Made by a program: the position numbers and the translations under genes
NCBI RefSeq assembly: GCF_016097555.1
Contig: NC_054701.1
Location: 63,741,927-63,805,926, forward strand
Source of the DNA: Gigantopelta aegis
Lineage: Eukaryota; Mollusca; Gastropoda; Neomphalida; Peltospiridae
Reading direction: 5' to 3'
DNA length: 64,000 nt
Shown here: positions 10,093 through 59,048 of the stretch, piece after piece
Layout: each line of letters begins with the position of its first letter
How positions within the stretch are numbered: the first letter of the stretch is position 1
Notes under the pieces: generated by a model
Told to the model about the DNA's origin: nothing
What the model saw: the letters and a program-made list of their open reading frames with translations, nothing else
Databases searched by the model: none

Positions 10093-10499
10093 TATGACAT
10101 TAAAAATAAAATTCGGCTCTGTCGAAAACAAATTCTGACAGTTACCATGACATTTTACCTGTTCAAATTCGTTTTAACATGTAGCATTTGGACAATGAAT
10201 ATGTATTCATTAACGACTAAGGCCAATACAATCACAGAAAATAGAAGTTGACATTTTGTACTGAAATAAAACTAGCGAACTTTTCTATCCGCAGTGAAGC
10301 CAGCGAACAATAAGAGGTTATCGGAGGTCAGGTCTTTCCAGAATATAGTTTCACATTGATTTACTTTATTGTCTTTCTGTATCAATAAATTTATAGTGCT
10401 TTTTGCAATAAACAATTATTTCTTCCACAATACAGTGAATATTAATATATTACAATTCTGAAATATGATTATTAGTTTAGGTATCAATGCGCATCCGGC

Positions 10500-11145
10500 T
10501 TCTCACCCCCTTACCTCTGCCATTTTGTTCGCTAGCTTCCTGATTTTGTTCGCTGGGTTGAAATTAATAGATATAGATAGTGAACAATTATTGCAATATT
10601 AATTTGGCATCACTTTAAGTATTTTAAATAATTTGTTCATTGCATTGTTTATTACTTAGTATAATATTGTTTAATTATTTTTTTTAAATTGTATCTAATC
10701 ATAATACTTGTGTTTTCCCCACAGATACTAACATGTTCAGTCCCGCTGTTGCATAAGGAACCAAAACCTTACCGGCTCTACAGCACGGTTCTGCACAGGA
10801 CGGTCTATGGTATACGCTGCAGTGAACGGGTTACCAGTTGTTCTACACGTGTACTAAGATATGAGGGGGTGAAGAAAATATATGTATATTGTGGATAATA
10901 ATCAATAAAATTTATATGTGCATATATATAACGTGTGCGTGTGTGAGTATTAACACAAATATATGTATATAGTGATGACGGCTCTATACAGGACGTTCCT
11001 ACACAGGGCGGTCTATTATTTTATATACTTAGATATGTGGAAAACACATTAACAGTAAAGGGAATAAATATATATTTTGTATATAAAAAAAATATATGTA
11101 TATTTTGGATAATACGCGAAAAAAAATAATATATATACTGTATAT
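10500..11145. other. arm segment with two related GGACGTTCC-type blocks, no gene
   Basis: It contains variants of CGGCTCTRTACAGGACGTTC and ACACGTGTACTRAGATATGAG, repeated in this arm at 13840-13862, 15154-15250 and 15370-15420 and mirrored at 57600-58390. The pattern is a short degenerate tandem family alternating with TA and CA microsatellites. A short ORF at 10689-10898 runs through it and is not considered coding. Confidence 0.5.
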
Positions 11146-11150
11146 ATATA

Positions 11151-12606
11151 TACTGAACAAAAAAAGAAACTTCCGATTTGTACATATAGTATTTGTTGTG
11201 TTAAAGAATTCATTGTGTAATGAAATTATATAGGTAGTATTAGCCTTTAGCTGTATTATCAGGATTCATGAATTTTATCGATTATTTTTGCACTGTTAAT
11301 CGTCGACAACGTGAAATTCAATTTGCACGTGCATGCATGGTTCGACATGTCCCGTGTAGTATTCGGTCGATTTGTTTTTTACATTGTAGCATTTTTAGTA
11401 TGCCAAGAATACCCAATAATTTACGCGAACGGACGATTGGCATGCTTGATGCTGGCATGTCGACAGAAGACGTTGCAAGGCATGTTGGGAGTTCTAGTCG
11501 AGCGATACGAAATCTTCGCGTAAGATTTCGAACGACAGTAAGCACCAACGACTTGCCACGTCGTGGATGTCCGCGTGTTACAACGCGTGGTCAAGACCGC
11601 TATATCATGAACACGCATTTGCGCAATCGATTCCAAACTGGCACTGCTACTGCTGCTAACAGACCTGGGCTTCATAATAACCGAATCAGTGGGCAAACTG
11701 TTGGTAATCGTCTGCGGGAGAACGGTTTACTTGCACGACGTCCTTACGTCGGATGCGTTTTAACGCAACGTCATCGTTTAAATCGTCTTAATTGGGCACG
11801 CGTACACACTCGTTGGATACGGCGACGCTGGAATACCGTTCTTTTTTCGGATGAATCCAGATTTTCTTTACAACGTGGTGATGGCAGGGTGCGCGTCTAC
11901 CGTAGGAGAAATGAACGCTATGTTCTTGAACGAGATCGTTTCGGGGGTGGGGGTTGTGTCATGATCTGGGCAGCTATTGCCCATGGTTATCGTTCTCCAC
12001 TAGTCATTGATGGCAATTTAAATGCTCAACGTTACCGCGATGACATTCTCGCTCATCACGTCATTCCTCTGTTCCATAACAACGCCAACATATCGATTTT
12101 TCAGCATGATAATGCCACCTCTCATACAGCTAGAGACACTGTACATTTTCTTAGGACAAATAACATTGATTTCATTGATGACTGGCCCTCTAAAAGTCCT
12201 GATCTCAACCCCATCGAGCATGTCTGGGATAGTCTGGACAGACGATTGAGGCGTCGTCCCAACCCACCCGCTAACGTTAACGAACTTCGTCAAGCGCTCA
12301 TTCAGGAATGGAACACTATTCCACAGGCAGAAATCAACACTAGTGAATTCTATGCGCCTGCGATGCACTGCAGTGGTCAATTCAAGAGGTGGTCATACCC
12401 GTTATTAAGTGGGTTTTTTTTTTTTTTAACCCCTACCACACTTGGTCAAAATTTCTCCCAGTTTCTGTTAACCTATGGCCATGATTTTTGCACCAAACGA
12501 TGCATCATGGAACACTCTTTAAACGCATATATAACAATTATTCCCCCGGTTTGTTTTCATCAAGTTATGTTCAAGCAAAGTTAGCGGAAGTTTCTTATTT
12601 TGTTCA

Positions 12607-12609
<3 letters not shown>
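11151..12609 (+). mobile_element. Tc1/mariner element, DD35E type, inserted in a TA microsatellite
   Basis: Terminal inverted repeats begin TACTGAACAAAAAAAGAAAC on the left (11151) and are mirrored at 12585-12609 (GTTTCTTATTTTGTTCAGTA). Flanks are TA repeats, the expected target. The right arm has the same TA-rich site without the element, so it arrived after the duplication. It carries one transposase gene. Confidence 0.92.
11400..12408 (+). pseudogene. Tc1-like transposase, one late frameshift
   Basis: The likely start is the Met at 11400 (MPRIPNNLRERTIGML), although the frame is open from 11268. An N-terminal paired-like helix-turn-helix region (DVARHVGSSSRAIRNL) is followed by a second DNA-binding half with RRGCPR. 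The catalytic core shows FSDESRF, then FQHDNATSHTAR, then SPDLNPIEHVWD. By count there are 35 residues between the second D and the E. The normal C-terminal end (NSRGGHTRY) is encoded in another frame, after about 12340, so one small indel broke the gene near its 3' end; the open frame instead runs on into unrelated residues. The enzyme would cut and paste the element at TA sites. Confidence 0.9.

Positions 12610-12691
<82 letters not shown>
12610..12691. repeat. TA microsatellite
   Basis: An uninterrupted (TA)n tract of about 80 bp directly abutting the right inverted repeat of the Tc1 element. Confidence 0.95.
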
Positions 12692-12694
<3 letters not shown>

Positions 12695-13862: not shown

Positions 13863-14866
13863 CTCACCTCTGAGGACTGTCTTTCGCCATCCGCGGATTA
13901 TAACGCTTCGCGCTCTATCCGCTTTAAAGAATTTTCTCTCGGCTTGTTTTAACAGTTTTAAATTTTATTTAATTATTTTTAAATGTTAGTTTGTATGGAT
14001 GTGTGAATGTATGTTTATTTAGTTTAGTTTGGTCAGCTTCAGGTTTGTATAGGCTGGGGTCCATTATCTGGCAATAATGCACTCCATCCTTCGCCGGCTT
14101 GTCCTTAACAATTTTAGGTTTTGTTATTTAAAAATTTATAATGTGTTTGGCGTTTTTTTTAACTTTAATTGTTTACTGGCGTGCTCTTTTTAATGTGTTT
14201 TGTTTTATCCAATTTTTAAAAATTTACTTTGTTTAAAAAAAAAAATATATATATATATATATGGGTCTTCGCGTCGACCGGGTGCATTTCCTCTACCATG
14301 ATTTGTTAAATTTTAATTTTGTCCTAAGTATTTAATCTACTAAAGTTATTTTTCTGTAGGCAGGGCTGGGTTAATTACAGTGTCTTCCATCACTTGGAGA
14401 CCCCATCGCTGGTTTAGTATATTATTTGTTAGGGGAGTGGTGCTGGGTTCCGGCTGGCGCGACGGTTGGGCGGATGGGGGTGGTGGTTCGGGGTGGGTGG
14501 GGGGAGGGGGATGCCACCAGAAATTAGGGGTTAGACGCTTAGGCGTAGGCGTTTTGGATTTAGGGAGAGATAGGATTGTCTGGGGCCTTCCCCCGTCCCT
14601 CGCTCTCCCTGACCCCCCCCCCCCCCGGGCCACGCTGAAGCTACAAATGAACCCGGTATTTCCCCATAAAGGTAAATTACTGTTAGTATTATATTTTAAT
14701 ATCAACCTCCTATATATTTTTAATTTTTGAGTAAAATTCAAAATTATTCCTTTAAATTTTCTGTCCCGGAGTAGACCTCTGGCTATCCAGAACTCGACCC
14801 CGGGACAGACATGCTTGAAACCTTCGTGGTATGGAAGCATGTGAATAAATGAATGAATGAATGAAT
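13863..14866 (+). repeat. non-LTR retroposon with AATG tail, left arm only
   Basis: The right arm reads straight through this site. The inserted block begins at TCACCTCTGAGGACTGTC and ends in repeated AATG units (14849-14866). It holds C/G homopolymers at about 14616-14629 and a purine-rich, G-rich stretch at 14465-14510. ORFs of 164 and 116 codons on opposite strands overlap here and look compositional, not coding. Possibly a truncated LINE. Confidence 0.55.
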
Positions 14867-14873
14867 GTTCCTA

Positions 14874-15152
14874 TTTATTTATTTATTTCAACTTATTTTC
14901 GTGCTTATATCCAATTAAGGTTCAAGCACGCTGTCCTGGGCACACACCTCAGCTATCTGGGCTGTCTGTCCAGGACAGTAGGTTAGTTGTTAGTTGGTTA
15001 GTAGTTAGTGAGAGAGAAGAGGGTGTAGTGGCCTTACACCTACCCATTGAGCCCTTAAGAACTCGCTCTGGGTTGGAGCCGGTACCGGGCTGCGAACCTG
15101 TACCTACCAGCCTGTAGTCCGATGGCTTAACCACTACGCCACCGAGGCCGGT
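14874..15152 (-). repeat. SINE inserted behind the AATG-tailed retroposon
   Basis: The minus strand has the head GGTGGCGTAGTGGTTAAGCC with B box GGTTCGCAGCCC, body GGCTCCAACCCAGAGCG, and tail GCTTGAACCTTAATTGGA. It is flanked by the 10 bp direct repeat AATGTTCCTA at 14864-14873 and 15153-15162. It is therefore younger than the element at 13863-14866. Confidence 0.85.
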
Positions 15153-16322: not shown

Positions 16323-16850
16323 AACAGGTAGGAAGGAAGGAAACTCTGTTTAACGTGCCCCTATCCACAGAGGTTCGGGCACGCCCACTTCGGATTTAGC
16401 CTCTGACTTCGCCAGTGACCAACTCCGAAGCAGGAGGGCAACAGGTAACTGGCAACTGGCAACTCATTGTGCGTGCCCCTATCCACTAAGGTTCAGGCAC
16501 GCCCACCCCGGATTCAGCCTCTGACTTCGCCAGTGACCGACTCCGGGGCGGGAGGGGGGGGGGGGGGGAAGTATGTGAAAGAGATGAAGGTGACAATTTT
16601 TAATAGTGTGGTAAGACCACTTAAAAACAGAGCCAAAATTAAAAAATAATTTGGGGTCTATCATTACATATGTTTATATTTATATTAATATAAAAGCACG
16701 ATAGTTAGAATTAAACCTATAACATTCTATTGTTTTATAATATAATTAGTAGGTGCATAATTATAGTTAAATTTTCAATCGGGCAGTTCAAAAATAATAT
16801 ATACTATACTTATATATTTAATAATAATATTTATACATATATATATATAT

Positions 16851-16881
<31 letters not shown>

Positions 16882-18529
16882 TTTTATTATTTAACTTTAG
16901 CCCTAGAGGAAAAAGGATTCGCAAAGGGGGGAACCCAGCGTTACCGAGCAGTCCGGCGCTCAAACCGCCAACGCCCTATCGCACCCAAATATGCACCCTA
17001 CCACGGCGTCCCCCCCCCCCCCCCCCCCCCAGGTTATCCATATAACACAGATGGGCCGTATTTAAATGAGATGAGTGGTATGAATATAATGATATATGAG
17101 AATAACCCGCGAGCCGCCGTCTGGTGTGGTTGTGAAACGTATAAGAAGTCATTGTTGTTGATGATTGACGGGTGGATTGATCCAGTTCTTGGAGTGAGGT
17201 GCCCTCGCCGTTCTCCTCAAGCATTCGTGAGCTCTACACCCCGAGGGGTGCGCCACCTAAACGGATGACAAATGTCATTGCTATATAATCCTCGGTGTCA
17301 CCCAAGTAACCACTTATTCGTTAAGTGGGTGGCTCCGAGTACCGGTCAGGTTTTTTTTATTTGTATATATACAATTGACCGATCAAATTAATACCGTTTA
17401 AAACCTGTTTGATAATTAAAAAGAACGGGTACATGTAAATTAAAATAATAATATTTTAAAAATGCTAAGAGGAAAAATTTAACAATAATAACTCAATTTA
17501 TTATAACAATTAATTAAAAGTATAATAACTATACCATACTTAATTAAAAACTAAAACACATTCACACACAGCCATATATTCCGCCCATGAAGGGCGGCAC
17601 AGACACTGCCAGGTGTCCGCGCCGCCAAGTCAAGGCGGAAAAACAACATTCACGCAACCACTCTCACACTAGGTTCAGATTACACTTTTTGGCCAGCTAT
17701 AAGCGCGGACCAAATAGAAGACATTTATAACGGGACCGGGTTCTAATTGGTCAGAACCCGGGCCCAGAAAGCCAATCGCCCCAGCACCCAATAGTTAATC
17801 ATTCCAGTAAAGATAACAGTAAAGAGTAGACGTGCTAGCAGCGGCCAGCAGAGAAAGAAGAGAAGTGAAGCAAAAGTTTCCATACGGTTGAAATGTGGGA
17901 AGTAGTAAAGAATACCGGACAGGATAATGTCCCAAGGCTACCCACGGCAAGACCCGGCTCTCCGGATATCACCGAATGGCACCTCGGGAACACTCGTGAG
18001 CGGCATTCAGCAGTTAAGACAGAAGAAAGAATACACAGTGTGTGTTAGAAGTGAACCGGATCGATATTCGACACTCAGTATGGAAGGGTGCGTTGCGATT
18101 GGCTGAATCTCGATCCCTAGTCGGAGCCGTTTAAGATAAAAGAAAGCCAGTGTTAAGAAACAACAGGCGGAAATTGAGCGGCTGCGATTGGCTGGATTTC
18201 GATTCCCTCTCTGGAAAAAAAAGAAAGAAAGGAATGTGGATGTTACAACTCTCCAGCCAATCGCCAACATGTGAATGAAGATTATTGTGTATAGGCTGTT
18301 CGGTGTTTCTAAAATTGTTTAAAAGGAAAAAGAGATTTATTAGTATAATTAATTAAAAGGAAATAAACATTTATAGTTAAAAAGAGTTAAAATATTATAT
18401 AAAAAGTGGAAGTTATTCGGTTTGTCCACGGGAGGGTAAGGCCAGCGCCGTTACCACCGTGGACAAGGTTTGCCACCAGCCAACTGTCCGCCGCTGTAAG
18501 GTGAGTTTAGAAGTTACGGCAACAGGTAG
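16323..18529 (-). mobile_element. 2.2 kb retroposon insertion with 9 bp target duplication
   Basis: The left arm is interrupted here relative to the right arm. The direct repeat AACAGGTAG occurs at 16323-16331 and 18521-18529, and the empty site in the right arm reads GAAAGGTAG. Read on the minus strand, the insert ends in TTCC repeats (16332-16340), as a non-LTR retroposon would. Its last 230 bp hold two tandem copies of a block with CACTGGCGAAGTCAGAGGCT and GGATAGGGGCACG; a third copy lies at 63268-63342. No long ORF; there are C and G homopolymers at 16553-16568 and 17010-17030. Confidence 0.75.
16797..16872. repeat. AT-rich microsatellite inside the retroposon
   Basis: Interrupted TA repeats of about 70 bp. 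Confidence 0.7.
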
Positions 18530-19482
18530 TGTCAAGCCAAGTCTTCGTTACTCTTTTATGTATTTCAGTTTCATTATTTTGTGTTGTCACAAGCAGTAGC
18601 ATGATGCCACATAAAATTTTTACACATGTATTAAGGGATTAACTACGGCAATCTTTGATTCACAAGTCGGCCCAGTGTTCTGTCAACACATCGAGGGGTT
18701 AGTGTCAGAACCCATTATATGGTGAATTATACAAAAATGAGTTAATTACCGTGTCAGCATCATGGAAATGTGTACTATCATTTCACAATATCTCATTCAA
18801 ATCAATCATTTATTTGTGCTTTTATACATCAGAACCCAAACCAATTATCTTGTATGTCCATTTCCACAAAAAGCCAAAACCATGTTTTCAGCACTACCTT
18901 ATTCTGTCTCTCTAGAATTTTGTAGTACCACCCATAGCTGACAGACATAACACGTTAGCTTACAACACTGGATTGTGGTGGGCTGTAAACTGTCTGAGAG
19001 ATTGAATCCTAGGTGCCAGACTGCATGACACGCTAATGACACATGCTAGCTCTAAGTGTTTACATCCAGCGATGGTGTTTTATTTAAACTATCTCTGGCT
19101 GGATGTTTTGGCTTACAAAGAAATAGCAGGTAGCTAGAATTAATTGTTTACACTACATGATGACCAGTCTGTTGGTGATAATCTGAGATGGGCTGCAGAC
19201 AATGGGGGGGGGGGGGGCTGGAAGTGTTTAGTTCTTAGACATCTGGAATGTGGTAAAATGTGTGTTGTTAACTAGTTGCTGAATAAATGTCGGTTATGTA
19301 AATAGTTTAATTAGAAGTGATTGCAGAGTTCATTTATCTCTACAGAAGAAACACGCAGTTGAGAAAATATTAACTGAACAGAGACATAGAGAAACTAGTT
19401 AAAAAGGAAAGTTATTTTCCCTTATTTTAGTTTGAATAGTTACTGTGTATTAGAGAAAAAATAATATAACTAAATTAATTTG

Positions 19483-19815
19483 CCGGGGGCAGGATGTAGC
19501 CCAGTAGTAAAGTGCTGGCCTGATGTGCAGTCAGTCTAGGATCGATCCCTGTTAGTGGAATCATTGGACTATTTCTCATTCCAGCCAGTGCTTCACAACT
19601 GGTGTTACAGACCATGCTATGTACTATCCTGTCTGTGGGATGATGCATGTATTAAAGATCCCTTGGTGCTAATTAAAAAAAATAGTTGCCCATAGTTTCC
19701 TCTCTAAAATATATTTATGGTCATTAACCACATGTCTGACACCACATACCTGTAGTTGTGTTGATTGTGTCATTAAATATAAAATTGTTTTCTCTCTTTC
19801 TTTCTTTCTTTTTTT
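19483..19815 (+). repeat. tRNA-derived SINE, plus strand
   Basis: Head GATGTAGCCCAGTAGTAAAG and B box GGATCGATCCC, then CCAGCCAGTGCTTCACAAC, then AAAGATCCCTTGGTGC, tail with TTGATTGTGTCATTAAAT ending in a TTTC-repeat tract. It is the cleanest plus-strand representative of the 867-1121 family. Confidence 0.82.
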
Positions 19816-20051
19816 AAACATGGCTCCCATACACAACAACCTTAGTTAAAAATTATGAACCAGTAATGTCTGTATTGCGTAGACAATGTGAATATTATAT
19901 ATAAAAAATGAAAATAAGAATGCTGGCACAAAGATGATAAATGTTTTATGACCATACGCAATAAAATATTTTAATTTACTTAGCATAGAGGGAAATTAGT
20001 TTATATTATTTCGAAGGCATCATCACAGGATTTTAACTTTTCTAGTCATTG

Positions 20052-21551
20052 TATACTCTTCAAAAGAAGAAACGCAAAACCACATTGTCGTAACATTTGG
20101 AGAATTGATTTAATTATTGAATGGTGAGTCCGATAATTACCAAATGTTGCAGGATTGTTCACAATTCACTCTAGTCCATTGTGAGTAAGTGATAGGACAC
20201 ACCACCAAGGTCAAGGTCATCTGGAGTCAATACCGGGTGTGGCCTCCGCGTGTGTTGACAACTGCCTGGCACCGCCTGCCCATTGAAGCAACCAGAGTAC
20301 GGATGACGTCCCGGGGGATGGTGGCCCACTCGGCCTGCAAGGCTGCTGCCAGCTCGGGCAGGGTCTGGGGCTGTGGTTGTCGCTGTCGGAGGCGTCGGTC
20401 CAACTCGTCCCATAGATTCTCAATTGGGTTCAAATCCGGTGATATCGATGGCCAAGGAAGGACATTAATGTTGTTGTTCTGTAGGAAAGCCGTTGTGAGA
20501 CGTGCTGTGTGAGGCCTGGCGTTGTCATGTTGGAACACTGCGTTGGCGTTGCCATAACTGGAACGATGTGTGGCCGGAGGATCTGGTCAATGTAGCCCTG
20601 TGCATTCAGGTTGCCCTGCACGTGGACCAGGTCAGTTCTGCCAGTGTGTGAGATGGCTGCCCACACCATGACACTACCCCCGCCGAATCTGTCCACTTCC
20701 TGCACGCAGTTTGCCGCATAACGTTCACCACGACGCCTATACACGCGACATCTTCCATCATGACGTCGGAGCAGAAATCGGGACTCGTCACTGAACCACA
20801 CCTGTCTCCATCGCAGTTGAGGCCATTGTCGATGAATCTGGCACCACTGCAGTCGGAGTCGACGGTGTTGTGGTGTTAAGATGACACCTCGAACTGGACG
20901 TCTGGCACGAATTCCTACCTCACGTAGGCGATTCCGTACGGTCTGGTCGGATATCCTGCGCAAACCTGGTATTGCTGCGGCTGTGGAGGTGGCAGTAGTC
21001 AATCGTTCCCGAAGGTGGCGTACCCGGATGTAGCGGTCCTGCCCGGGGGTAGTGTCCCGTGGTCGACCGGATCTAGGGAGGTCACGTGTTGATCCATGTT
21101 GCTGGTAACGGTCCCACAGTCTGGAGATGGTGCTTGGGGACACATGGAATGCCCTGGCAACGGCCGTTCTGGATTCGCCTGCGTCTAGTCGGCCGATGGC
21201 ATTGTTTCTCTGCGGTTCACTGAGACGTGGCATGTCCTGGATTGTCAACTGTCGGCCAGATACAGAGGCCAGGCAAGCGAACACCCTGCACTTTTATACT
21301 GTCGGTGTTCATGTTGCACGTGCAGACAACGCACGTGCAGTGGTGACATGGTTTGCACGTGGCTGCGTTTTTGCGAATATTCACATTTTGGAACTTTATT
21401 GTACAGTAGCTGCGTTTTATCGAATGTAACCGTGGGAATGTGTTTGGGACATGCAATGACCTTATATTCACAAAGCATGAACCGGTAGGAAACATAAAAT
21501 CGGAGTTATAACCCATTTGTACCCTTTTGCGTTTCTTTTTTTGAAGAGTAT
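20052..21551 (-). mobile_element. Tc1/mariner element, DD34E type
   Basis: The terminal inverted repeat starts TATACTCTTCAAAAGAAGAA at 20052 and is mirrored at about 21524-21551 (ending TTTGAAGAGTATA). TA duplicates flank it. It contains one transposase gene on the minus strand and lies inside the 6.2 kb insertion. Confidence 0.92.
20227..21233 (-). pseudogene. Tc1-like transposase with one frameshift in the catalytic core
   Basis: It starts at Met 21233 (MPRLSEPQRNNAIGRLDAG), with HTH residues VARAFHVSPSTISRLWDRY, the GRPR hook, then FSDESRFLL and GGGSVMVWAAIS. The frame then changes at about 20540 and continues as MFQHDNARPHTAR, SPDLNPIENLWDEL, ending GGHTRY at the normal C terminus. The two parts sum to the full family length. 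There are 34 residues between the second D and the E. A single indel makes it inactive as it stands. It would act on its own TIRs. Confidence 0.92.
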
Positions 21552-21589
21552 ATATTTTATAGACATTATATAATATTTGACACATACTG

Positions 21590-21700
21590 TAAAACGGGTA
21601 TTATCCGCGGCAGTAAATTTTCGCGATATCAAAAATGCAGGCAGTTCGCGGTTTTTAATTTTCGCGGTGTCATGGTTTTTGTTTTTTCTTTTTTGTTTGT
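21590..21700. repeat. short TTTTCGCG-type repeat
   Basis: AAATTTTCGCGATATC and ATTTTCGCGGTGTC lie within 60 bp, next to GGGTATTATCCGCGG. Such words recur in short fold-back repeats of marine invertebrates. Only a fragment can be delimited. Confidence 0.35.
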
Positions 21701-22890: not shown

Positions 22891-22892
22891 TG

Positions 22893-23934: not shown

Positions 23935-24085
23935 CTCTGATAGCTTACATTTCGTGTTTAATTAGTGTAATAAATATACCTGTTATAACTGGTATGATAG
24001 CTTACATTTCATGTAATAATTAATGTAATAAATATATCTGTTAAAACTGGTATGATAGCTTACATTTCATGTAATAATTAATGTT
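23935..24085. repeat. short tandem repeat, about 64 bp unit
   Basis: ATAGCTTACATTTCATGTAA recurs at 23998 and 24055, with a first variant at 23940. Each is followed by TAATTAATGT or a variant and ATCTGTTAAAACTGGTATG. About 2.3 units. Confidence 0.75.
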
Positions 24086-43745: not shown

Positions 43746-43748
<3 letters not shown>

Positions 43749-46585: not shown

Positions 46586-48135
46586 TATACTAAAACGCAA
46601 AAGAAACGCAGGTTCTCATTAAATTGGATATAAAATATTAAAAAAACAAAACGAAATGAAGATTTCAACATTTATTTTGGAGCTACACCAATTCGGCACA
46701 CATTGGTGTTGGAAATGTTTGATTGAATTCCTTTTTGGCTATTGTTTCATGTCATAAAGTAGGGTGGGGGTCCATGTTAAAAATGTGAAAGAGACGACCT
46801 GTAGCATTGTCAAAGTCAGTATCGCGTGTGACCACCCTGGGCATTCAAACAGGCAGTGCAACGTCTCCTCATTGAGTTGACAAGCCGTTGAAAGAATGCC
46901 TGAGGGAGTGAGTTCCATTCATGGACCAATGCTGTCTCCAGCGCCTGCATATTCTGAGGTTGTCCGCGAGCCTGAAGGCGACGTCCGATTTCATCCCAGA
47001 CGTGTTCGATAGGCACCATGTCCGGTGATAAGGCTGGCCACGGCAACGTTGGGATGTTGTGCTGAGCCACCAACGCCTGTGTTGCCCTGGCATTGTCTTG
47101 CTGCAGCAAGCGCACACGTGGGTGAGCGGCAAAGAAGGGAACGACGTGATTGTTGATGACGTCATTTTGGTACACGGCGGCATTAACGCGTTGTCTGAAC
47201 ACATGAAGTTGTGTTCTGTGGTTGAATGAGAACCCACCCCACACCATCACACTACCCCCGCCCCATCGGTCGGCCTGCAGAACGCAGCAGTCGGAGTAAC
47301 GTTCATGTCGACGTCGCCATACTCGGATTCGGCCATCAGCGTTGGAAAGATTGTAACGGCTCTCATCAGTAAATAGAACTTGTTGCCACTGGCCACGTCG
47401 CCATCTTTGATGTTGTTGCGCCCACTGTTGACGTTGTTGGCGGTGCCGAGGGGTCAATATTGGTCCCACATAAGGACGGCGGTTACGGAGTCCTGCTGCC
47501 CTCAGACGGCGTCGGACGGTATCGGTGGACACTGGACCACGTGGACCACGCACCTGGTGAGCGGTGTTAGCTGCTGGCAGCATCCGATTCCTAAGGTAGG
47601 TCACCCGGATGTACCGGTCTAGGGCTGCGGTTGTCACCCTCGGGCGGCCGGTGCGTGGTCGATCGTTCACAGATCCAGTGATTTGGTGACGTTGAGAAAG
47701 GCGTGCGATTGTCGAAACATGACATCCCAATTGTCTGGCTACAGCAGTACGGGTCTGTCCGGCTTGCAACATCCCGATGGCCATCCCTCGCTGGAGTTGC
47801 GTCAGTCGCGGCATTTTTAAAATGTGATTCTGTTGTCTGTCACTACTCAAATTGAATTTATGCAATTAAATCCAGGTGTGTAGGCTTTATAAGCATTTCA
47901 ATGAGTGTGTTTGCACTGGATTCATGATACGGATGATCCAGCACGTGCAAACAACGTGTTTTGAGAATTCGTGACGTCACACAGGTAATGAAATTGACAC
48001 GCAGGTGGGACTGCGGTGTGGGTGTGTGCCATGTCCTTTAATACAGTTGAGGTTCAATTCCACCAAAGATACTGCTTTACAAAGTGCAATTCTTTCGCAT
48101 TTTCAGGACCTGCGTTTCTTTTGCGTTTTAGTATA
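46586..48135 (-). mobile_element. Tc1/mariner element, right arm only
   Basis: TIRs start TATACTAAAACGCAAAAGAA (46586) and mirror at 48108-48135 (TTCTTTTGCGTTTTAGTATA). It is absent from the left arm between the equivalent of the orphan exon and the SINE, so it inserted after the duplication. One minus-strand transposase, full-length frame. Confidence 0.93.
46816..47814 (-). CDS. Tc1-like transposase, open frame but short D-E spacing
   Basis: Met at 47814 (MPRLTQLQRGMAIGMLQAG) starts an uninterrupted frame of about 332 residues ending GGHTRY. HTH residues VARQLGCHVSTIARLSQRH, GRPR hook, catalytic FTDESRYNL, GGGSVMVWGGFS, LLQQDNARATQAL, and SPDMVPIEHVWDEI. An in-frame upstream Met at 47865 adds 17 unrelated residues. 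Only 29 residues separate the second D from the E, against 34 in the relative at 20227-21233. The lost piece is the HTAR-type loop after DNAR, consistent with a 15 bp deletion between short direct repeats. It may therefore be inactive despite the open frame. Confidence 0.92.
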   Translation of the reverse strand: MPRLTQLQRGMAIGMLQAGQTRTAVARQLGCHVSTIARLSQRHQITGSVNDRPRTGRPRVTTAALDRYIRVTYLRNRMLPAANTAHQVRGPRGPVSTDTVRRRLRAAGLRNRRPYVGPILTPRHRQQRQQWAQQHQRWRRGQWQQVLFTDESRYNLSNADGRIRVWRRRHERYSDCCVLQADRWGGGSVMVWGGFSFNHRTQLHVFRQRVNAAVYQNDVINNHVVPFFAAHPRVRLLQQDNARATQALVAQHNIPTLPWPALSPDMVPIEHVWDEIGRRLQARGQPQNMQALETALVHEWNSLPQAFFQRLVNSMRRRCTACLNAQGGHTRY

Positions 48136-48262
48136 TATGAAATCTTAAAAAAATAAAAAATAAAAAATAAACACTTTCCTAAAAAGGCTGATCACCTTGG
48201 GGTCACTGTGACCCAGCTAGACTCAACCTTTATTTAACCATCTTTTTCCCCAAGATTTATAA

Positions 48263-48638
48263 AAAGATTTAACGACGCACTCAACACATTTTATTTACGG
48301 TTATATGGCATCAGACATATGGTTAAGGACCATACAGATTTTCAGAGGAAACCCGCTATCGCCACTACATGGGCTACTCTTTCCGATTAGCAGCAAGAGA
48401 TCTTTTATTTGCGCTTCCCACAGGCAGGATAGCACAAACAATGGCCTTTCTTGAACCAGTTATGGATCACTGGTCGGTGCAAGTGGTTTACACCTACCCA
48501 TTGAGCCTTGCGGAGCACTCACTCAGGGTTTGGAGTCGGTATCTGAATTAAAAATCCCATGCCTCGACTGGGATACGAAGCCAGTACTTACCAGCCTGTA
48601 GACCGATGGCCTAACCACGACGCCACCGAGGCCGGTCC
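48263..48638 (-). repeat. tRNA-derived SINE shared by both arms (right)
   Basis: Mirror of 38253-38628. Imperfect flanking repeats CCAAGATTTATAA and CCCAGACTTATAA look like the old target duplication. Confidence 0.85.
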
Positions 48639-48719
48639 CAGACTTATAATGTTAGAACTCATACATTACTATGTGCCAATGTTCAGAATAATTTGTGTTA
48701 TTTAAATGAAACACCAAAT

Positions 48720-50890
48720 AATTTAGTTATGTCTGTAAATGGAGCCTGAAATTAGGCAAATACTAATTTTCACGGGTACCCGTACAACCCCAATACTAAC
48801 CCCATCTGCCCGTACATGGATTTTTGTGATGAAAATGGCTATATAGTTCCTAACTCTACTCTATAATAGGGTATCAGCCATACATTGTGATTCATGTCAC
48901 ATTGTTTAGTTCCGTCTGTAAATGGAACCTGAAGTTAGGCAACAACTAATTTTCACAGACTCCTAAAACTCTCAATACCCATCCCATCTGCCCTTAAACC
49001 GATTTTCATGATGAAGATGACTATGTTGTTCCTAACTCTACACTATAATAGGGTATCAGCCACACACTGGGATTTATGTCATATCATTTAGTTCTATCTG
49101 TAACTGGAGCTCAAAATTAGACAAAGACCAATTTTCTCGGCACCCCTAGTCCCAGTACCCACCCATACTGCCCCATAAACAGATTTTCGCGATGAAGATG
49201 ACTATATAGTTCCTAACTCTACTCTATAATAGCGTATCAGCCACACAAAGGGATTCATATACATCATTTAGTTCTGTCTGTAAATGGTGCCTGAAGTCAT
49301 GAGTAATGAGTAATTTTCAAGGGGACCCATACAACCCCATCTGCCCTTAAACCGATTTGTGTGATGTAAATGGCTATGTAGTTCCTAACTGTACCCTATA
49401 ATAGGGCATCAGGCACACATTGAGATTTATGTCATATCATTTAGTTCTGTTTGTAAATGGAGCCTAAAGTTAGGCAACGCATAATTTTCACATGGACCCA
49501 TACAACCCCAATACCCACCCCATCTGCCCGTAAACAGATTTTCGTGATGATATTGCCTATATAGTTCCTAACTCTACCTTATAATACAGTATCAGCCACA
49601 CACAGTGATTTATGTCACATCATTTAGTTCTGTCTGTAAATGGAGCCTGAATATAGGCAATGACTAATTGTAATGGCGACCCATACAACCCCAATACCCA
49701 CCCTTACTGCCCTTAAACCGATTTTCGTGATGATATTGGCTATATAGTTCCTAACTCTACTTTATAATACAGTATCAGCCACACATAGTGATTGATGTCA
49801 CATCATTTAGTTCTGTCTGTAAATGGAGCCTGAAAATAGGTGACAAATAATTGTAATGGGGACCCACTAGCCATGGGATCAGTGATTTTGAAAATTTACT
49901 AGACACGATTAAAAATTCACTAGCCCTACTTTAAGTTAATACAGTTTGACTAAATAATAATAATAATCCGATATGTCACCTAAAGAGGGAGACAGATCTT
50001 AAAACACTAACTTTAGGGGTTGGGGTGCAGTCAGGATATTCATATTTACAAAACAGACTTAACTGCAGCATTTGACGAAAAAAAAATCACTAGCCGTCGG
50101 GCATGACAATAGTAGTTATTTATTAGCCCAACACTGAATATCACTAGCCACGGGAGTGGGGCTACCATAATCTAGAAGCCCTGCTGCCCCATAACCAATT
50201 TTCGTGATGATATTGGCTATATAGTTCCTAACTCTACAGTATAATAGGGTATCAGCCACACATAGTGATTGATGTCACATCATTTAGTTCTGTCTGTAAA
50301 TGGAGCCTGAAAATAGGCGACATCTAATTGTAATGGGGACCCATACAACCCCAATACCCACCCTTACTGCCCCTAAACCGGTTTTCGTGATGATATTGGC
50401 TATATAGTTCCTAACTCTACCTTATAATAGGGTGTCAGCCATGCATAGTGATTTAGGTCACATCTTTTAGTTCTGTCTGTAAATGGAGCCTGAAAATAGG
50501 CAACAACTTATTTTCTCAGGCACCCATACAACCCCATTACCCACCCCATCTGCCCTTAAATCGATTTCCGTGACTAAAATAACTATGTAGTTCCTAACTC
50601 TACTTTATAATAGGGTAGCAGCCACACGTAGGGATTCCTGTCACATCATTTAGTTCTGTCTGTAAATGGAGCCTGAAAATAGGCAACAACTCATTTTCAC
50701 AGGTACCCATATAAACCAAATAGCCACCCTTATTGTACTTAAAACAGATTTTTATGATTAAAATGGCTATATAGTTCCGAACTCTATTCTATAATAGGGC
50801 ATCTGCCATGCACAGGGATTTATGTCATATCATGCAATACCTGATGAAAAAGACAATGTCACAATAGGGTACACATTTCAGTTTCATAGA
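48720..50890. repeat. satellite of about 183 bp units, right arm
   Basis: The reverse-complement landmark GTCTGTAAATGG recurs at about 48730, 48913, 49095, 49276, 49448, 49631, 49814, 50295, 50478 and 50661: ten units plus the shared MITE-like insert. Seven units lie on the far side of the insert in both arms; on the gene side the left arm has six and the right arm three. Confidence 0.92.
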
Positions 50891-50943
50891 GATAGCTTCT
50901 AAGTAACCTGAACGGCTGAGCCTGCTGAAGTCGATTCCTAGGA

Positions 50944-52122
50944 CTAGCAGTAAACCGGGTAGGCCTCTGTATCCGTCGAACTGAGGGGATCAATCAGGAG
51001 AAAGATCGGCTGGAATCTGGAAACCCCCCCACAAATTTCCGGATCTTCGTAGATATTCTTTTGGTATGTGACAATTTTCTTGGTGAAACCAATCGAATAG
51101 CATGTATTTGGCATCAGTACCAGTAACAGGGTGTACAGCTGGGTCTGAAGATGTCTTAGGTCGGTCGTCAATTAGAAATTCCATCGATACTTCCAATTTC
51201 CCGTCTCTGGCTGCTTTGATGTTGTCGTCTGTATCTACCGCTATCCGTCCGTCATTAGGGTGAACAAAAATTGTCTGTGTTCGGTTACCCATTTTAGCTA
51301 TGGTGTTGGCAATGTCAGCAATGTTAACAGTCAGCATGTGTTTCATGGATTTTAGTATATCAACATAATCTCTAGGAGATTCTGATCTGAGGAGGAATTT
51401 GACAGCATATGTCACATTGTGTTGACAGGTTGATGACAACCAACCACCGGAAATGCCGAAGAGGGATGAATAAGCATGATTGAATTTAGCTTTACTGAGA
51501 GAGTTGCTACGCAGCTGGCACAACATGTCTAATTTGCTTCCCTCAGCTCTAACACCAATCAGTCTACAGAATCTTCGGACCGTGTCTAACTTTTCATCTG
51601 CCAAGAGATGAGTCAAAATTTCCTCTGGCACTGGTTCATGGTCCTCAGATTCTGTACACTTCACTTTTGCAAATTCGGTATTGTACAGGAATCGGCTTTT
51701 CCTGGTGTTTGGTCCAATGTATGGATCCCAGTTGTGGTAGCCAGGCTTCATTACAAACGGGTTAGGTTTTCCGCGTAGAAACCCTCTGGTGACTATTTCC
51801 CGGTTTACATTTTGCCAAAATGCATCAGCATCAACCTCAGGTTGAGGATCATCGGGAACTTGAACTTCATTTACAGCATATTTAAAGACTGCTTTTTTGG
51901 TCAGATCGTGGATGAGTATTTTCGGATGATGGCCGCATCTCATGCAGAAGAACTCGTAGTCATGCTGCACTTGTGCTTCGAACGAGAGATAGGCGTTTTC
52001 TATTTCTTGATGCTTCAGTTCTATTCCTAGTCGATATTCTAACATCGAGACTACTCTATTGATTGCTGTGTGATTCTGCAGTTATATATAGACAATACAT
52101 ATATTAATGATACAAGCAAACA

Positions 52123-52188
<66 letters not shown>

Positions 52189-52238
52189 ATTATACATACA
52201 GTGCTTTTGATAATAATTAAAATTAAATAATGTTGTCA

Positions 52239-52278
<40 letters not shown>

Positions 52279-53830
52279 CATGTTACATGCAGGGTTTTTG
52301 ATAATAATTAAGAATAATTTATTGTGTTAAAACGTATCAGTATTGTGAATATTTGGTAATAAAAATGAATGGATCATGACTTACAACTAGACCAGCCCTG
52401 ATTTCCAAAAGGACTGAAAAGGAAATCAGGAGGTGGTCGTCGTAATTGAAGAGGCCGTCTTTGACTTCCTGGTATCTATATGGCATCTTGCAGGTTGAAC
52501 ACTTTCTGTAGAACATCTCGTAAAATGGTAGTGGGTCGCTGTCAAGGGTGCACACTGTAGCTCTATGTGTTATCAGTTGAGGGTCTTCCAAAAGGCTACC
52601 GCATGATTTGCACTCGGTTTCATAAGGCATGAGCTGTTTTGGGCATACACTTCTGTCAAAGGTCGGTAAATGTTCACTGTCTACTGTTTTATTGTCAAGC
52701 ATATAGGTCAGAACGTCTCCTAATACACGTCCAGTCGGGGGATACGTGGAGGAATCTGTTAAGTCGTCAGCTGGTTCACATTCGAGATCGTCATTCATTG
52801 TTGTCGGATCTTGTCCTTGTTGATACAGCCAACATCTTACCAGTCCTGGATGTGCCAATTGTCACTGTCGTCCTCTGTAAAAATGAAATCTATCGCTGCA
52901 GTGGGGTCGATGGGGAAGTTTAACAACAGCCGGAACCTTTATATTTTCGGCCGAATCCAAAAGAGTGACACAGCTGTTTCGACGGGCGTCAGTCAGAAAT
53001 CCTTCTGAAACCATATCGTTCAGCTTGTCATTGGAAACATTGCATGAAGTTCCTAATGTTGAAAACTCTGTTGATTTTATGTGGTCGCATAGATAACCTG
53101 CATTACCACGGCGCCACTCGGTCTGGCAAACATCCCTGCAGTCGGCAACTTCGCACTCTACGTGGGTTTTAGGTCCCATCGTTTTTTTTTATAACGTGTA
53201 CTGGATGTTGTGGACCACGCAGTGTTCGTGAAACAGCATACACCCCGCTCTCGATGTCAACAAGGACGGCGTGATGATGTCGCTGTTTGGTCATACCTTT
53301 TTCTTTGTCGTTGTGTTTGTCTCTGATGTGCTGGCGGATATATTTTTTGTGGTACAGTTTCTTGCAGTGTTGGCATTGTATGGAATTGGTGTTAATGACT
53401 GGTATTGAAATTGTGTCCGTTTCTGAATTTGAAATTGTAACCGATTCATTATCTGAATTTGATCTAATTGGGTCCGTTTCCGAGTTTGCGTTTGGTGAAC
53501 TGCTGGGATCTATAAGTTGTGTTGTCTTTTCGTGTGATATAATTTCAAATATATCAGTAAGATATTTATCACACGAAGGCACGTGTTTTAGAAAGACGGC
53601 CTTCTTTTTGAATGTGATGCTACAGACAGGACAATGGTAATGATTTTGGCTGCTGCTTCCCGGACATTCCATAGGACATCCAGTAATGCAATATCCTTTA
53701 ACATTTACATTTCCCTTTGCACCATGAAAATGAGACTGAAGATGGCTAATAACTTTCTGCTTCCTCGACGGTTTGAATTTCGCTACAGGGCATATTGGGC
53801 AGTGGAAGCACTGAAATCCGCCATCACAAT
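50944..53830 (-). pseudogene. HMGXB3-like / KDZ-associated zinc-finger gene, right-arm copy
   Basis: First exon 53830-52385 (minus) with the same C2H2 fingers as the left copy and the same A-run frameshift after RGPQHPVH. Here two deletions around 52850-52880 remove the FYSVYTDATRWWCKV stretch and the TCKCKWKNCEH cluster, so the CxC domain is lost. The donor GTAAGT and acceptor TTCTGCAG bound an intron with GT microsatellites. Exon 2 (52075-50944) is intact over 351 residues from MLEYRLGIELKHQEIENAY: it holds FFCMRCGHHPKILIHDLTKK, GPNTRKSRFLYNTEF, EILTHLLADEKLDTVRRF and LFDWFHQENCHIP. A G-run indel then shifts the last residues; the other frame ends EAYPVYC, as in the left copy. Together the two arms show what the undamaged protein contained. 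No HMG box or transposase RNase-H motif could be demonstrated. Confidence 0.6.
52124..52187. repeat. GT microsatellite in the intron
   Basis: About 31 GT units, followed by a second tract at 52241-52277; longer than the CA tract in the left-arm intron. Confidence 0.9.
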
Positions 53831-54758
53831 CTACAATGAAAAGTTATTTATTTACTGCTACTGAATTGCGGAGTAGTAGTAGTAGTTTATTTACTTTAAG
53901 CGGTGTGAATCATAAGCATACAAATATATACAATATTATACATGCGCATCTGACAGGCGCATGCTAACTCTTTTTATAAATATTACATGATTATCAACTT
54001 GCTGATTAAATCATACATATCCAAATCCTAAAGAAAATAATAAATGTTTTACATGGTGTAGCCAGTTAAAAGATTCCTGACTTTCTAACATATCATCATA
54101 TATTGATTTCAAAATACAATTCTTCGTTTCTAAAAACTTCAACCAATATTTAACAATTCTTTATTTTTTGACGTTAATAAAGTTTCATATTACTATTATT
54201 GTTTGTCAGATTGTGTGCAATCTCCTTCTTTTACATAATGACTGACTCGTTAAAATTTAATAAAAAATTTAATATTAGCAAGTAATACTCGTGTGTTTGT
54301 GTATATATAACTACGTACGAACGGCAATGTACATTAATTTGAATAGATAACTAACTGCGATTTTCTGTATCGCTAGCTGCATTATTAAATATTGTGATGT
54401 AACCAAAACAAGTGCTGTTAATATAGGTAGATATTTTTAGGTTAAATTAGATAATTAGCTGCAAAATTTACACTTTATAATGCAATGTATATTAAAACGG
54501 GCACTAAATCAAACAGTAAACAAAAAACCAAGCTGAATAAAACAATAATTATAACAATTATAATACTATAGGATAGGAAATACAGAATACATTTAAAGAA
54601 GGCATTGCCACTATACATATAATACATACATATCCAAAAATATATAGGTATATATTATGATAAAAAGATTAAGCATTAGTGGGTCTAACGAATACACTGG
54701 TTGGCGAATACGAGACATATAACGAATATGAAGTGGCAAAAATAGTAAATTAATTCTA
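53831..54758. other. arm sequence upstream of the zinc-finger gene
   Basis: AT-rich DNA mirroring 31500-32438. No exon supported. Confidence 0.4.
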
Positions 54759-55665
54759 ATGCATAAAATACTTAAAGGCGAAACACCTCAATATCTACTG
54801 GATGAAATCTTGTTATATGTTAATCCCACTAATCGTTTTACACTCAGAAATCAACATCCATTCACTCCACCAACATGCCATACTAATTCATATAAAAACA
54901 GCTTTATTCCCAATATTTTGGAGTTATGGAATGATCTTGACAGTTTAACTCAAAATGAACCATGTCTGCGTACCTATAAAAAAAATTAATAAAAAAGGGA
55001 AATCCCAATCCTTCATCTACTCTCTATCTTTATGGAAATCGTAAATGTAACGTTATCCATTGTCAGCTTCGTAACTATGCTAGTAACTTAAACTATCATT
55101 TATTTTTAAGCCATCTTTCTGATAGCCCAAGTTGTGCATGTGGAGATAACTGTGAAGATAATTTTCATTATTTTTATGTCTGCCCTCTGTTCATCGGACA
55201 AAGATATGATTTATTTGCATCGTTACGGAATTACCTTGATATCTTAGACATTGATCTGCTACTATCTGGGTCAATAAATCTACCAATTGAAGAAAACTAT
55301 TTAATTTTTAACGCAGTACATAAATATATAGCTGAAAGTAAGAGATTCGAGTTGAACTAACTTATTATTCTGATCTTACTGCCCCATATAAGGTTAGCTC
55401 CAACAATAGGATCATTACTATCATATTTTTCTCGACTATCCCATTTCTATTCTATCTACTCTCTACCTCTTATTACTATATATTAAAAAATATTAATTAT
55501 GTTAAATATTTTATGCCATTAGACATTGTTATTATGCTTTACATATATATGATTATGAATATTGTCAGATGCCTATCTTGTTTAGGAGAGCATTTATATA
55601 GGCTCTGCCTGTTGTGCAATCCTTTTGATTCTTTTTTGGTCAATAAAATATCTCAAAACAAAACA
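54759..55665 (+). repeat. LINE 3' end (C-terminal polyprotein and 3' UTR)
   Basis: First frame: HKILKGETPQYLLDEI, FTLRNQHPFTPP and NSFIPNILELWNDL, the C-terminal region after reverse transcriptase that LINEs of the CR1/RTE kind encode. After a stop and frame change near 54985 a second stretch reads NYHLFLSHLSDSPSCACG, then DNCEDNFHYFYVCPLF, a C-x-C...H...C zinc-like motif common to LINE C termini, and ends RFELN at 55360. The 3' UTR runs to TTTTGGTCAATAAAATAT (about 55640). It is 5' truncated, as is usual for LINE copies. Mirrored in the left arm. Confidence 0.8.
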
Positions 55666-55795
55666 ATATGAAGTGGCTGTATATACGAAAATAGCGCTAT
55701 AGCTGGTCAGGCTAAATAACATGGTAACAAGTTATATTTAAAATGTTTTAAGTAAATATTATAAGAAATAATAAGAAATATTACCTGCTTCATTT

Positions 55796-56049
55796 ACGGC
55801 ATATTTAAAGACTGCTTTTTTGGTCAGACCGTGGATGAGTATTTTCGGATGATGGCCGCATCTCATGCAGAAGAACTTGTAGTCATGCTGCACTAGTGCT
55901 TCGAACGAGAGATAGGCGTTTTCTATTTCTTAATACTTCAGTTCTATTCCTAGTCGATATTCTAACATCGAGACTACTCTATTGATTTCTGTGTGATTCT
56001 GCAATTATATATAAATAGACAATACATATATTAATGATACAAGCAGAAA

Positions 56050-56102
<53 letters not shown>

Positions 56103-56228
56103 CATTATACATACAGGGCTTTTCATAATAATAATTAAAATTAAATAATGTTGTCAATTGTGTGTGTTCACTGTCTATGTTCTGGGGGCAATAAATCTTT
56201 AAAAAAAAAAAAAAAAAAAGACATTGTG

Positions 56229-56264
<36 letters not shown>

Positions 56265-56304
56265 CATGTTACATGCAGGGTTTTTGATAATAATTAAGAA
56301 TAAA
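55796..56304 (-). pseudogene. extra fragment of the zinc-finger gene (intron plus start of exon 2), right arm only
   Basis: Contains the beginning of exon 2 (to ACTTCATTTACGGC-equivalent sequence) and the GT-microsatellite intron, in the same orientation as the gene at 50944-53830, ending ATTAAGAATAA. It has the left-arm variants (GAAGTATTAAGAAATAG with the stop, and CACTAGTGCAGC), not those of the nearby right-arm gene. A short A-tailed insert (about 56164-56222) interrupts it. Confidence 0.75.
56052..56101. repeat. GT microsatellite
   Basis: About 25 GT units inside the extra gene fragment. Confidence 0.9.
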
Positions 56305-56773
56305 CGCGACAAACTTCAAGGGTGAAAACGTCTTCAACTTTCTGATTTTCTTGAATAATAGTAATATGCGTCATATTTTCCGTATTGAAAAACTCAAATA
56401 TTCAAATATTATTGACTGAATTCAAAAATGAACGTATCTTTCGACAATATTTGGCAAGCACTGTTTGGAAATGAAACACGCAAATATATAGACAAATGAT
56501 AAAAATAAGAGTAGGGATACGTCACAGAATACAGAAACAGTTAAAAATAAAACAAAAGACACTAAATTGCAAAAAATGATGGTTAATTGTATTCATGTTC
56601 ATACATAATGGTGTACTATATTACTTACGCCAGACAGGCATCATGCTACTGCTTGTCACAACACAAAATAATGAAACTGAAATACATAAAAGAGTAACGA
56701 AGACTTGGCTTGACACTACCTTTCAAACCTTTTACAGAGAACAAGTTTTGAGATTGATAATATATACTTAGAA

Positions 56774-57295
56774 ATGGCCAAAATCGCTTTGTTTGGAAGT
56801 AGCTATGTAAGAAGACTGGAGCCGTTTTGTTCACGAGATCTGAGGATCGCAAGCGAGTTCCGTTTCTTTGGGCGTGGAGGACTAAGAACGGATAACATCC
56901 CTAATGGAATGATGGATGATGTTGAGCAATTTCAGCCTGATGTTGTTATTGTACAGTTAGGGGAAAATGACATTTCTGGGAGCAGTTCACCAAAAGATAT
57001 ATTTGATAAACTGTGTGCAGTAGAACAATCGTTTAAGCGTCTCGGAGTTGAAGAAGTATATTTCGTAGAGATTAGCAGACGAGGAAACTTTGAGAAATCT
57101 CCCGGGCTTACCTCAAGAGCGTATTGTAAACAGAGAAATTCCATCAACAGACACCTCAGGAAGAAGTTTGGAAAACGTGTGATTGGTCTGAACATCCAAT
57201 ACCCGGCCGAGTTCCACAAAGATGGCGTTCATTTCAATAAGAAAGGAACCAGAAAGTACTTTTTAAAACTACGTAGAGTGTTTGCGTGTTTCTGA
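56774..57295 (+). CDS. small SGNH/GDSL-hydrolase-like protein, intact
   Basis: 173 residues from MAKIALFGSSYVRRLEPF to RRVFACF. Block I, GSS (residues 8-10), stands in the place of GDS with a candidate nucleophile Ser. FFGRGG (block II Gly), QLGENDISG (block III GxND with oxyanion Asn) and HKDGVHFNKKG (block V DxxH, catalytic Asp/His) are all present, so the catalytic set looks complete. No signal peptide or membrane segment is evident. Length is short for cellular esterases but normal for SGNH domains carried by transposable elements (known in some LINE ORF1 and tyrosine-recombinase elements). No partner transposase or polymerase frame is seen beside it. A degraded twin is at 15840-16273. 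Start chosen at the first Met, which matches the twin. Confidence 0.82.
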   Translation: MAKIALFGSSYVRRLEPFCSRDLRIASEFRFFGRGGLRTDNIPNGMMDDVEQFQPDVVIVQLGENDISGSSSPKDIFDKLCAVEQSFKRLGVEEVYFVEISRRGNFEKSPGLTSRAYCKQRNSINRHLRKKFGKRVIGLNIQYPAEFHKDGVHFNKKGTRKYFLKLRRVFACF

Positions 57296-57869
57296 GTGAC
57301 TTGAAATTACGTATCAGTTTGTTCTTGTTCAGTAAAGTAATATTTTAAATATCAGAATGTGTTTTGTTGCATTTTTCTTATAGTGTCTATCTAATTGGGA
57401 AAAGTACATACAATAATTTGGGTGGCAAAGTTGAGTTTTTATGCGGCAAAGTGTTTTTAATACTCACACACGCACACGTTATATATATATATATTATTCT
57501 TTTTTTCCACGTATTATCCAAAATATACATACATTTTCTTTATATACAAAATATTTATTTATTTCCTTTACTGTTAATGTGTTTTCCACCATATCTAAGT
57601 ATATAAAATACTAGACCGCCCTGTGTAGGAACGTCCTGTATAGAGCGGTTATCACTATATATATATTGTTTTGTTAATACTCACACACACACACGTTATA
57701 TATATGCACATATATATTTTATTGATTATTATTCACAATATACATATATTTTTTTTATTATTACTGACTTTCCCCCTCATATCTCAGTACACGTGTAGAC
57801 AAACAACAACTGGTAACCATTCACTGCAGCTATACTATAGACCGTCCTGTGCAGAACCGTGCTGTGTAG

Positions 57870-57932
57870 GAACGTTCTGTACAGAGCCGTCATCACTATA
57901 TAATTTTTTAATACTCACACACACACACACAC

Positions 57933-57983
<51 letters not shown>

Positions 57984-58000
57984 TATATATATATATATAA
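57870..58000. repeat. CA and TA microsatellites in the right arm
   Basis: A CA tract at about 57916-57933 is followed by TA tracts at 57938-57976 and 57985-57999; the left-arm equivalents were split by the Tc1 element and other inserts. Confidence 0.85.
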
Positions 58001-59048
58001 AAAATCGTGTATTATCCAAAATATACATATATTTTCTTTATATACAAAATATATATTTATTCCCTTTACTGTTAATGTGTTTTCCACCATATCTAAGTAT
58101 ATAAAATAATAGACCGCCCTGTGTAGGAACGTCCTGTATAGAGCCGTCATCACTATATACATATATTTTTGTTAATACTCACACACGCACACGTTATATA
58201 TATATGCACATATATATTTTATTGATTATTATCCACAATATACATATATTTTCTTTATTATTACTGACTTCACCCCCTCATATCTCAGTACACGTGTAGA
58301 ACAACAACTGGTAACCGTTCACTGCAGCGTATACCATAGACCGTCCTGTGCAGAACCGTGCTGTGTAGGAACGTCCTGTACAGAGCCGGTAAGGTTTTGG
58401 TCCCTTATGCAACAGCGGGACTGAACATGTTAGTATCTGTGGGTATTATGATTAGATACAATTTAATTAAAAAAACAACAACAATATTATACTAAGTAAT
58501 AAACAATGCAATGAACAAATTCTAAAGCACAATTATTTAAAATACTTTAAGTGATGCCAAATTAATATTGCAATAATTGTTTTCTATCTATATCTATTAA
58601 TTTCAACCCAGCGAACAAAATCAGGAAGCTAGCGGCAGAGGTAAGGGGGTGAGAAGCCGGATGCGCATTGATACCTAAACTAATAATCATATTTCAGAAT
58701 TGTAATATATTAATATTTACTGTATTGTGGAAGAAATAATTGTTTATGGCAAAAAGCACTATAAATATATTGATACAGAAAGACAATAAAGTAAATCAAT
58801 GTGGGAACTATATTCCGGAAAGACCTGACCTCCAATATCCTCTTATTGGATAGAAAAATTCGCTAGTTTTATTTCAGTACAAAATGTCAACTTCTATTTT
58901 CTGTGATTGTATTGACCTTAGTCGTTAATGAATACATATTCATTGTCCAAATGCTACATGTTAAAACGAATTTGAACAGGTAAAATGTCATGGTAACTGT
59001 CAGAATTTGTTTTCGACAGAGTCGAATTTTATTTTTAATGTCATATTC

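Follow-up and report, generated by a model that had tools for sequence, protein, structure and literature searches.

A 64,000-nucleotide stretch of the genome of the gastropod Gigantopelta aegis (the window: C3:63741927-63805926 of an assembly of 1,149,253,464 bases in 5216 contigs) contains two long arms that are inverted copies of each other, separated by a spacer of 5.3 kb. Large inverted duplications are a known kind of structure, and the question raised by this locus is whether such a duplication has taken place in the animal or whether the symmetry was produced by mobile elements or by the assembler. Our analysis of the window and of the surrounding assembly showed that both arms are descended from one locus. 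A genuine old inverted segmental duplication is the best reading and, in our judgement, a probable one; that the structure exists in the animal is what we infer from the assembled sequence.

Extent and edges of the inverted symmetry

Self-comparison of the window by BLAST yielded 12 inverted pieces, chained in exact reverse order, which pair 10092-40019 with 59046-45324. An earlier, sequence-only reading of this DNA had described at least seven blocks in exact reverse order between two sharply bounded arms, and the self-comparison bore out this order. Of the 13,704 20-mers of the reverse-complemented right arm, the left arm contained 7,441, whereas the same-strand control gave 118, so a chance origin of the symmetry is out of the question. 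The locus thus shows what defines an inverted segmental duplication or large palindrome, namely long inverted arms of a single origin, far above chance. The parts of the palindrome are as follows (coordinates to the left or right of the window continue its numbering).

10092-40019, plus strand: left arm as bounded by the sequence-only reading, putatively the copy; chained self-BLAST pieces, enlarged by arm-specific inserts
45324-59046, minus strand: right arm as bounded by the sequence-only reading, putatively the source; chained self-BLAST pieces, with relatives reading through its inner edge
40020-45323: non-palindromic spacer of 5.3 kb, from self-BLAST
1-8535, plus strand: outer continuation of the left arm, in blocks 1-1332, 1442-1843, 1843-2216, 2615-3443, 3457-4258 and 4250-8535; partner at 66953-91919, largely beyond the window's right end

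The inner edges are sharp and exact (40019|40020 and 45323|45324). The outer edges, which had been described as equally sharp, are only places where the match is broken by arm-specific DNA: followed into the parent assembly, the symmetry passes both of them and the window itself, extending from -561 to 91919. With 20 kb added on the right and 10 kb on the left, 4250-8535 paired with 71226-66953 at 95.2%. Further out, 3457-4258 paired with 83740-82933, 2615-3443 with 89173-88338, 1442-1843 with 89982-89582 and -561..1332 with 91919-90021; so measured, the arms are 40.6 and 46.6 kb long. The supposed right outer edge is the start of a high-copy repeat, since most of its 43 listed matches begin at window 59041-59045 (best 40 of 425 candidates scored). 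Past the 200-N gaps at the ends of the contig, out to -49999 and 124000, a listing of matches above 300 bp and 85% gave only pieces of ~310-670 bp at 85-98%, which we take for dispersed repeats because some of them recur inside the stretch.

The extent of the symmetry bears on one transposon-based explanation, in which the arms are the terminal repeats of a single fold-back element with long terminal inverted repeats. Inverted arms together with inner tandem arrays do look like a fold-back element, and the three bases TCT stand outside both of the outer edges first described. The symmetry nevertheless runs past these edges, the arms are made of several unrelated repeats, and a 4,271-bp outer block occurs in full length nowhere else. 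We rejected this origin, which we regard as extremely improbable, as the arms do not end at a duplicated target site and the outer block is specific to the locus; recurrence of the paired arms was not searched systematically.

Common origin of the two arms

In the assembly, at least 65 matches were listed for the right arm's inner 1,273 bp (best 40 of 76 candidates scored) and 43 for its outer 647 bp (40 of 41 candidates scored). A dispersed element, here called element A, therefore makes up much of the arm. Its copies in the window, and the features that distinguish them, are listed below.

44962-58878: element A of the right arm, class unassigned; truncated at 44962, terminus ...TTTCAGT at 58878, passing through the inner edge at 45324
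10260-40019: element A of the left arm; terminus as in the right copy, stopping 362 bp before the right copy's reach
58879-59046: 168-bp flank past the element A terminus, right arm; 2 mismatches between the arms
10092-10259: 168-bp flank past the element A terminus, left arm; counterpart of 58879-59046
51041-58407, minus strand: insert nested in element A at the identical place in both arms (left ~10754 to ~35250, an alignment estimate), with a CxC4/KDZ-type gene on the minus strand and a GDSL-like open reading frame (ORF) at 56714-57295 on the plus strand

Since copies of the inner 1.3 kb and of the outer 0.65 kb are found across the genome, we initially favoured a large transposon that had inserted twice, independently and in opposite orientations, and the arms, as first bounded, are indeed largely one dispersed element. 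We dropped this explanation because the arms have a flank and the nested insert in common and the left one is truncated. Among 11 element A copies examined for their terminus, nine had TTTCAGT as their last bases, one had TTTCAAT and one broke off earlier, and the flanks then diverged; the 168-bp flank was not seen at the ends of these other copies. Consistently, past position 506 of the 647-bp outer query only the two arms matched (2 of 43 matches; 40 of 41 candidates scored). We compared 13 relatives of element A, from 20 stretches, in a listing that left out matches below 60 bp and those wholly within a tandem array. At the site of the nested insert, the two sides were joined within 80 bp in 9 of the 13 and separated by other DNA in 2, in one of these with a reversed piece of the insert, and the place was uncovered in the remaining 2. 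A 4,271-bp query from the outer arm (4260-8530) had a full-length match only in the two arms (best 40 of 12,795 candidates scored). Arm DNA is thus specific to this locus beyond the mobile element alone. Together with the further outer blocks, which reach -561 and 91919, the common 168-bp flank, the nested insert and the 4,271-bp stretch mean that both arms are descended from one locus. Shared sequence does not halt at the element termini as in a transposon pair, the left arm ends within the element, and two separate insertions are accordingly a most implausible origin. Helitron-like ends were also considered and rejected, as the terminal 61 bases folded no better than shuffled sequence (z -0.80, -1.38, 1.44 and 1.31).

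The gene of the nested insert encodes a CxC4 domain (PF18717; E 1.2e-09 in the right arm and 6.1e-11 in the left), a KDZ-associated cysteine cluster. For its first coding part the search gave two close copies, one per arm, plus a few partial matches at 83-96% (best 40 of 1,149 candidates scored). Between the arms, the ratio of non-synonymous to synonymous differences (pN/pS) was 0.62, from a crude count of 39 versus 17 changes that is not decisive on selection. No terminal inverted repeats or target duplication of the insert were seen by eye at 51040/58408, where the exact ends are uncertain, and no relative of the KDZ-type or GDSL-like proteins was confirmed in a viral collection. A piece of the KDZ-type gene occurs twice in the right arm in direct orientation (55788-56167 and 51865-52249, 92%). 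A reversed piece of the insert lies inside another element A copy (C4:22018000-22031500), and the CxC4/KDZ and GDSL-like family is low-copy. Among the open frames and Pfam matches of the 23 window frames, no ordinary host gene was seen in the arms.

The left inner joint and the direction of copying

The two inner edges differ in what element A does there. In 9 of 13 relatives the element is uninterrupted across position 45324, the right inner edge. The right copy in the window reaches 44962, where relatives carry other sequence and the window a dispersed repeat. We had considered the inner edge as a terminus of element A, and rejected it because the apparent end came from the start of the query itself and relatives read through. 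The DNA around the edges is arranged as follows.

44306-44960: dispersed repeat beside the truncated start of element A, matched to the query end at 44960 in at least 9 listed copies
40020-40049: left inner joint; 6 bp, then 40026-40049 as an inverted copy (23/24) of 40299-40322, with a 3-bp overlap (40047-40049) with the retroelement match
40047-42693, minus strand: truncated retroelement, with RVT_1 in ORF 40045-40335 (E 3.1e-10) and gag-like ORFs upstream

Since relatives read through 45324 and the left arm stops 362 bp earlier, the right inner edge is old, continuous element DNA and the left one a new joint. On this comparison the right arm looks like the source and the left arm like the copy.

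At the left joint, the retroelement is cut at 40047: all 39 other listed copies match from that base (best 40 of 338 candidates scored). The 24-bp inverted copy next to the cut, whose source lies ~250 bp away, had an alignment score of 43, against a best score of 31 among 200 shuffles. Such an inverted local copy fits a scar of the kind left by break repair or template switching, although the step from scar to mechanism is ours. In yeast, fold-back synthesis at breaks makes short inverted templated insertions, mostly of about 5-34 bp in the published account (PMC11724301). The copy at the left joint is like these templated inverted duplications at double-strand breaks (PMC11724301) in being inverted and in size, here 24 bp from ~250 bp away; those duplications are made by fold-back near the break. 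The yeast events, as that account describes them, are shown in that organism (PMC11724301), whereas the window presents a scar alone, and the duplication whose joint it marks spans tens of kb.

The retroelement belongs to a many-copy family, and over 354 bp the window's copy shares 96-97% identity with the 39 others that were listed. Its four upstream gag-like frames had no Pfam match; we call it DIRS-like, a name of our own taken from the reading frames.

Divergence of the arms and the case for a genuine duplication

Outside the tandem arrays, the arms were compared over 15 blocks of 15,952 bp in total, which contained 227 transitions and 167 transversions (394 differences) and 64 gap openings. 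The Kimura two-parameter distance (K) was 0.025 overall (2.5%) and 0.012-0.035 (1.2-3.5%) in single blocks. The longest identical run was 392 bp, a length reached in 17 of 1000 permutations, and heterogeneity among blocks was mild (23 of 1000 permutations). We saw no sign that long tracts have been homogenised recently; small gene-conversion events between the arms are possible, as the 392-bp run and the mild heterogeneity are both slightly above random. On primate sex chromosomes, gene conversion keeps the arms of palindromes alike. Our locus resembles those palindromes, and the palindromes of willow as reported (PMC7023750), in having a long pair of inverted arms around a short unrelated spacer. 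In contrast to the primate palindromes, its arms are 2.5% apart, carry large arm-specific inserts, lack strong homogenisation and contain recognised genes of transposon type; neither near-identical arms nor the long identical tracts of a gene-converted palindrome were found. Of the mechanisms that the sequence-only reading had brought up, break repair or template switching thus agrees with the 24-bp inverted copy, whereas strong arm-to-arm gene conversion does not agree with the divergence and the length of the longest run.

The arms also differ by insertions and by the lengths of their repeats.

11153-12607, plus strand: Tc1-like transposon, left arm only, at TA
46587-48132, minus strand: Tc1-like transposon, right arm only, with TA duplication
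13864-15152: left-arm insert with an end named by eye as like a tRNA-derived short interspersed element (SINE); possible 6-bp duplication, 5/6 match
16332-18523: left-arm insert of 2.2 kb, with 9-bp duplication AACAGGTAG
18609-24832: left-arm insert, no duplication seen; contains a Tc1-like ORF at 20430-21293
25845-31449: compound left-arm insert; Harbinger-type pair of a DDE_Tnp_4 ORF and a MADF ORF
48715-50833: 183-bp tandem repeats, right arm, from self-BLAST and repeat scan
35456-38174: 183-bp tandem repeats, left arm, from repeat scan

A TA microsatellite has 42 units in the left arm (12608-12691) and 31 in the right (57937-57999). The sequence-only reading had named arm-specific insertions with their own target duplications and unequal microsatellites as signs that the arms have been separate for some time, and the data agree: a Tc1-like element sits at TA in each arm, one insert has the 9-bp duplication and another the weak 6-bp one. 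A fold-back read of a single molecule, which that reading had argued against, is ruled out because the arms differ by 2.5% and by many insertions.

Several of these insertions have further traits. The Harbinger-type insert carries inverted arrays of TTACGAG-like short repeats at its two ends (25906-30175), with the look of fold-back ends. The right arm carries an 11.7-kb insert (71219-82932) at a TTAA whose left-arm counterpart, judged by eye, is empty; the insert's ends, CCCTT...ACGGG, presumably mark a piggyBac-type element. A small inverted-repeat element at 9000-9668, within the left-arm interruption 8536-10091, has a second copy at 106087-105421 (93%). ARAGORN found no tRNA genes, including at the SINE-like end of 13864-15152, and Rfam gave no matches at gathering scores.

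The main competing explanation is an assembly artefact: the animal would be heterozygous at a single locus, and the assembler would have joined its two alleles head to head. The 1.15-Gb genome, in 15 pseudo-chromosomes, is described as assembled from Canu-corrected PacBio reads with wtdbg2 (-e 2, --rescue-low-cov-edges), Racon, Pilon and 3D-DNA (PMC7895826), a draft long-read assembly made with permissive settings. A number of observations weigh against a genuine duplication. The whole palindrome lies inside one contig of 98,166 bases (-6199 to 91966) flanked by two 200-N gaps, the right one at 91967-92166; its axis is 212 bp from the middle of the contig, and the homology of the right arm stops 47 bp short of the contig end. 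On the left the homology ends at -561, while on the right it enters a repeat at the end of the contig. The 4,271-bp stretch is present in full exactly twice, both times in this contig. A control at -19999..-15000 was not single, with a 91% relative at C3:33.87 Mb and weaker ones on C13 and C14; as an older repeat family or low-copy duplication, it says little on the artefact question. Finally, a divergence of 2.5% with many transposon differences would also fit alleles of a marine mollusc. In Pinctada fucata, heterozygosity is reported at about 3%, with many transposon presence/absence differences between alleles (PMC9646362), much like those between our arms. The haplotypes of that species are described as lying on separate scaffolds (PMC9646362), whereas the arms of the window lie inverted in one contig.

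Other features speak for the duplication. Both arms border one non-palindromic 5.3-kb spacer: a misjoin driven by a repeat would have needed to hit the very same locus, and the symmetry of a single-molecule fold-back read would extend right to its turning point. The left joint bears a scar like that of break repair. The right contig end lies inside a repeat family with at least 45 matches (best 40 of 230 candidates scored), which is another reason for the contig to end at that point. Outside the arms, three low-copy stretches (-3916..-600, 43760-44285 and, except for a 53-bp piece, 114001-118123) had no second copy (best 40 candidates scored for each), so neighbouring DNA has not been kept twice. 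Divergence is similar along the arms, which we also count for a duplication. On balance, joined haplotypes are an unlikely source of the palindrome, though one to be taken seriously.

If the duplication is genuine, a locus of ~40 kb or more (today's length), already with element A and its nested KDZ-type insert, would have been copied in inverted orientation ~5 kb away. The inner end of the left arm would then have been sealed to the broken retroelement by end joining or template switching, leaving the 24-bp inverted local copy; the mechanism was presumably replicative. Afterwards the arms would have drifted 2.5% apart, each gaining transposon insertions of its own. The fullest form of this account is a palindrome with arms of at least 40 kb, born of fold-back template-switching repair at a break in the retroelement, recorded in the 24-bp scar, and persisting to 2.5% divergence without being homogenised or collapsed; we offer it tentatively.

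A narrow literature search found no paper on gastropod palindromes, which is thin ground for claiming rarity. The outer edges of this locus indicate that what looks like the edge of a palindrome can be no more than an insertion site. If the structure is an artefact, it would be a warning that draft mollusc assemblies may fold two haplotypes into one contig and so mimic palindromes. If it is real, it would be a large palindrome in which the source arm, the copy arm and the joint are distinguishable, an estimate of age is possible, and the arms have escaped homogenisation.

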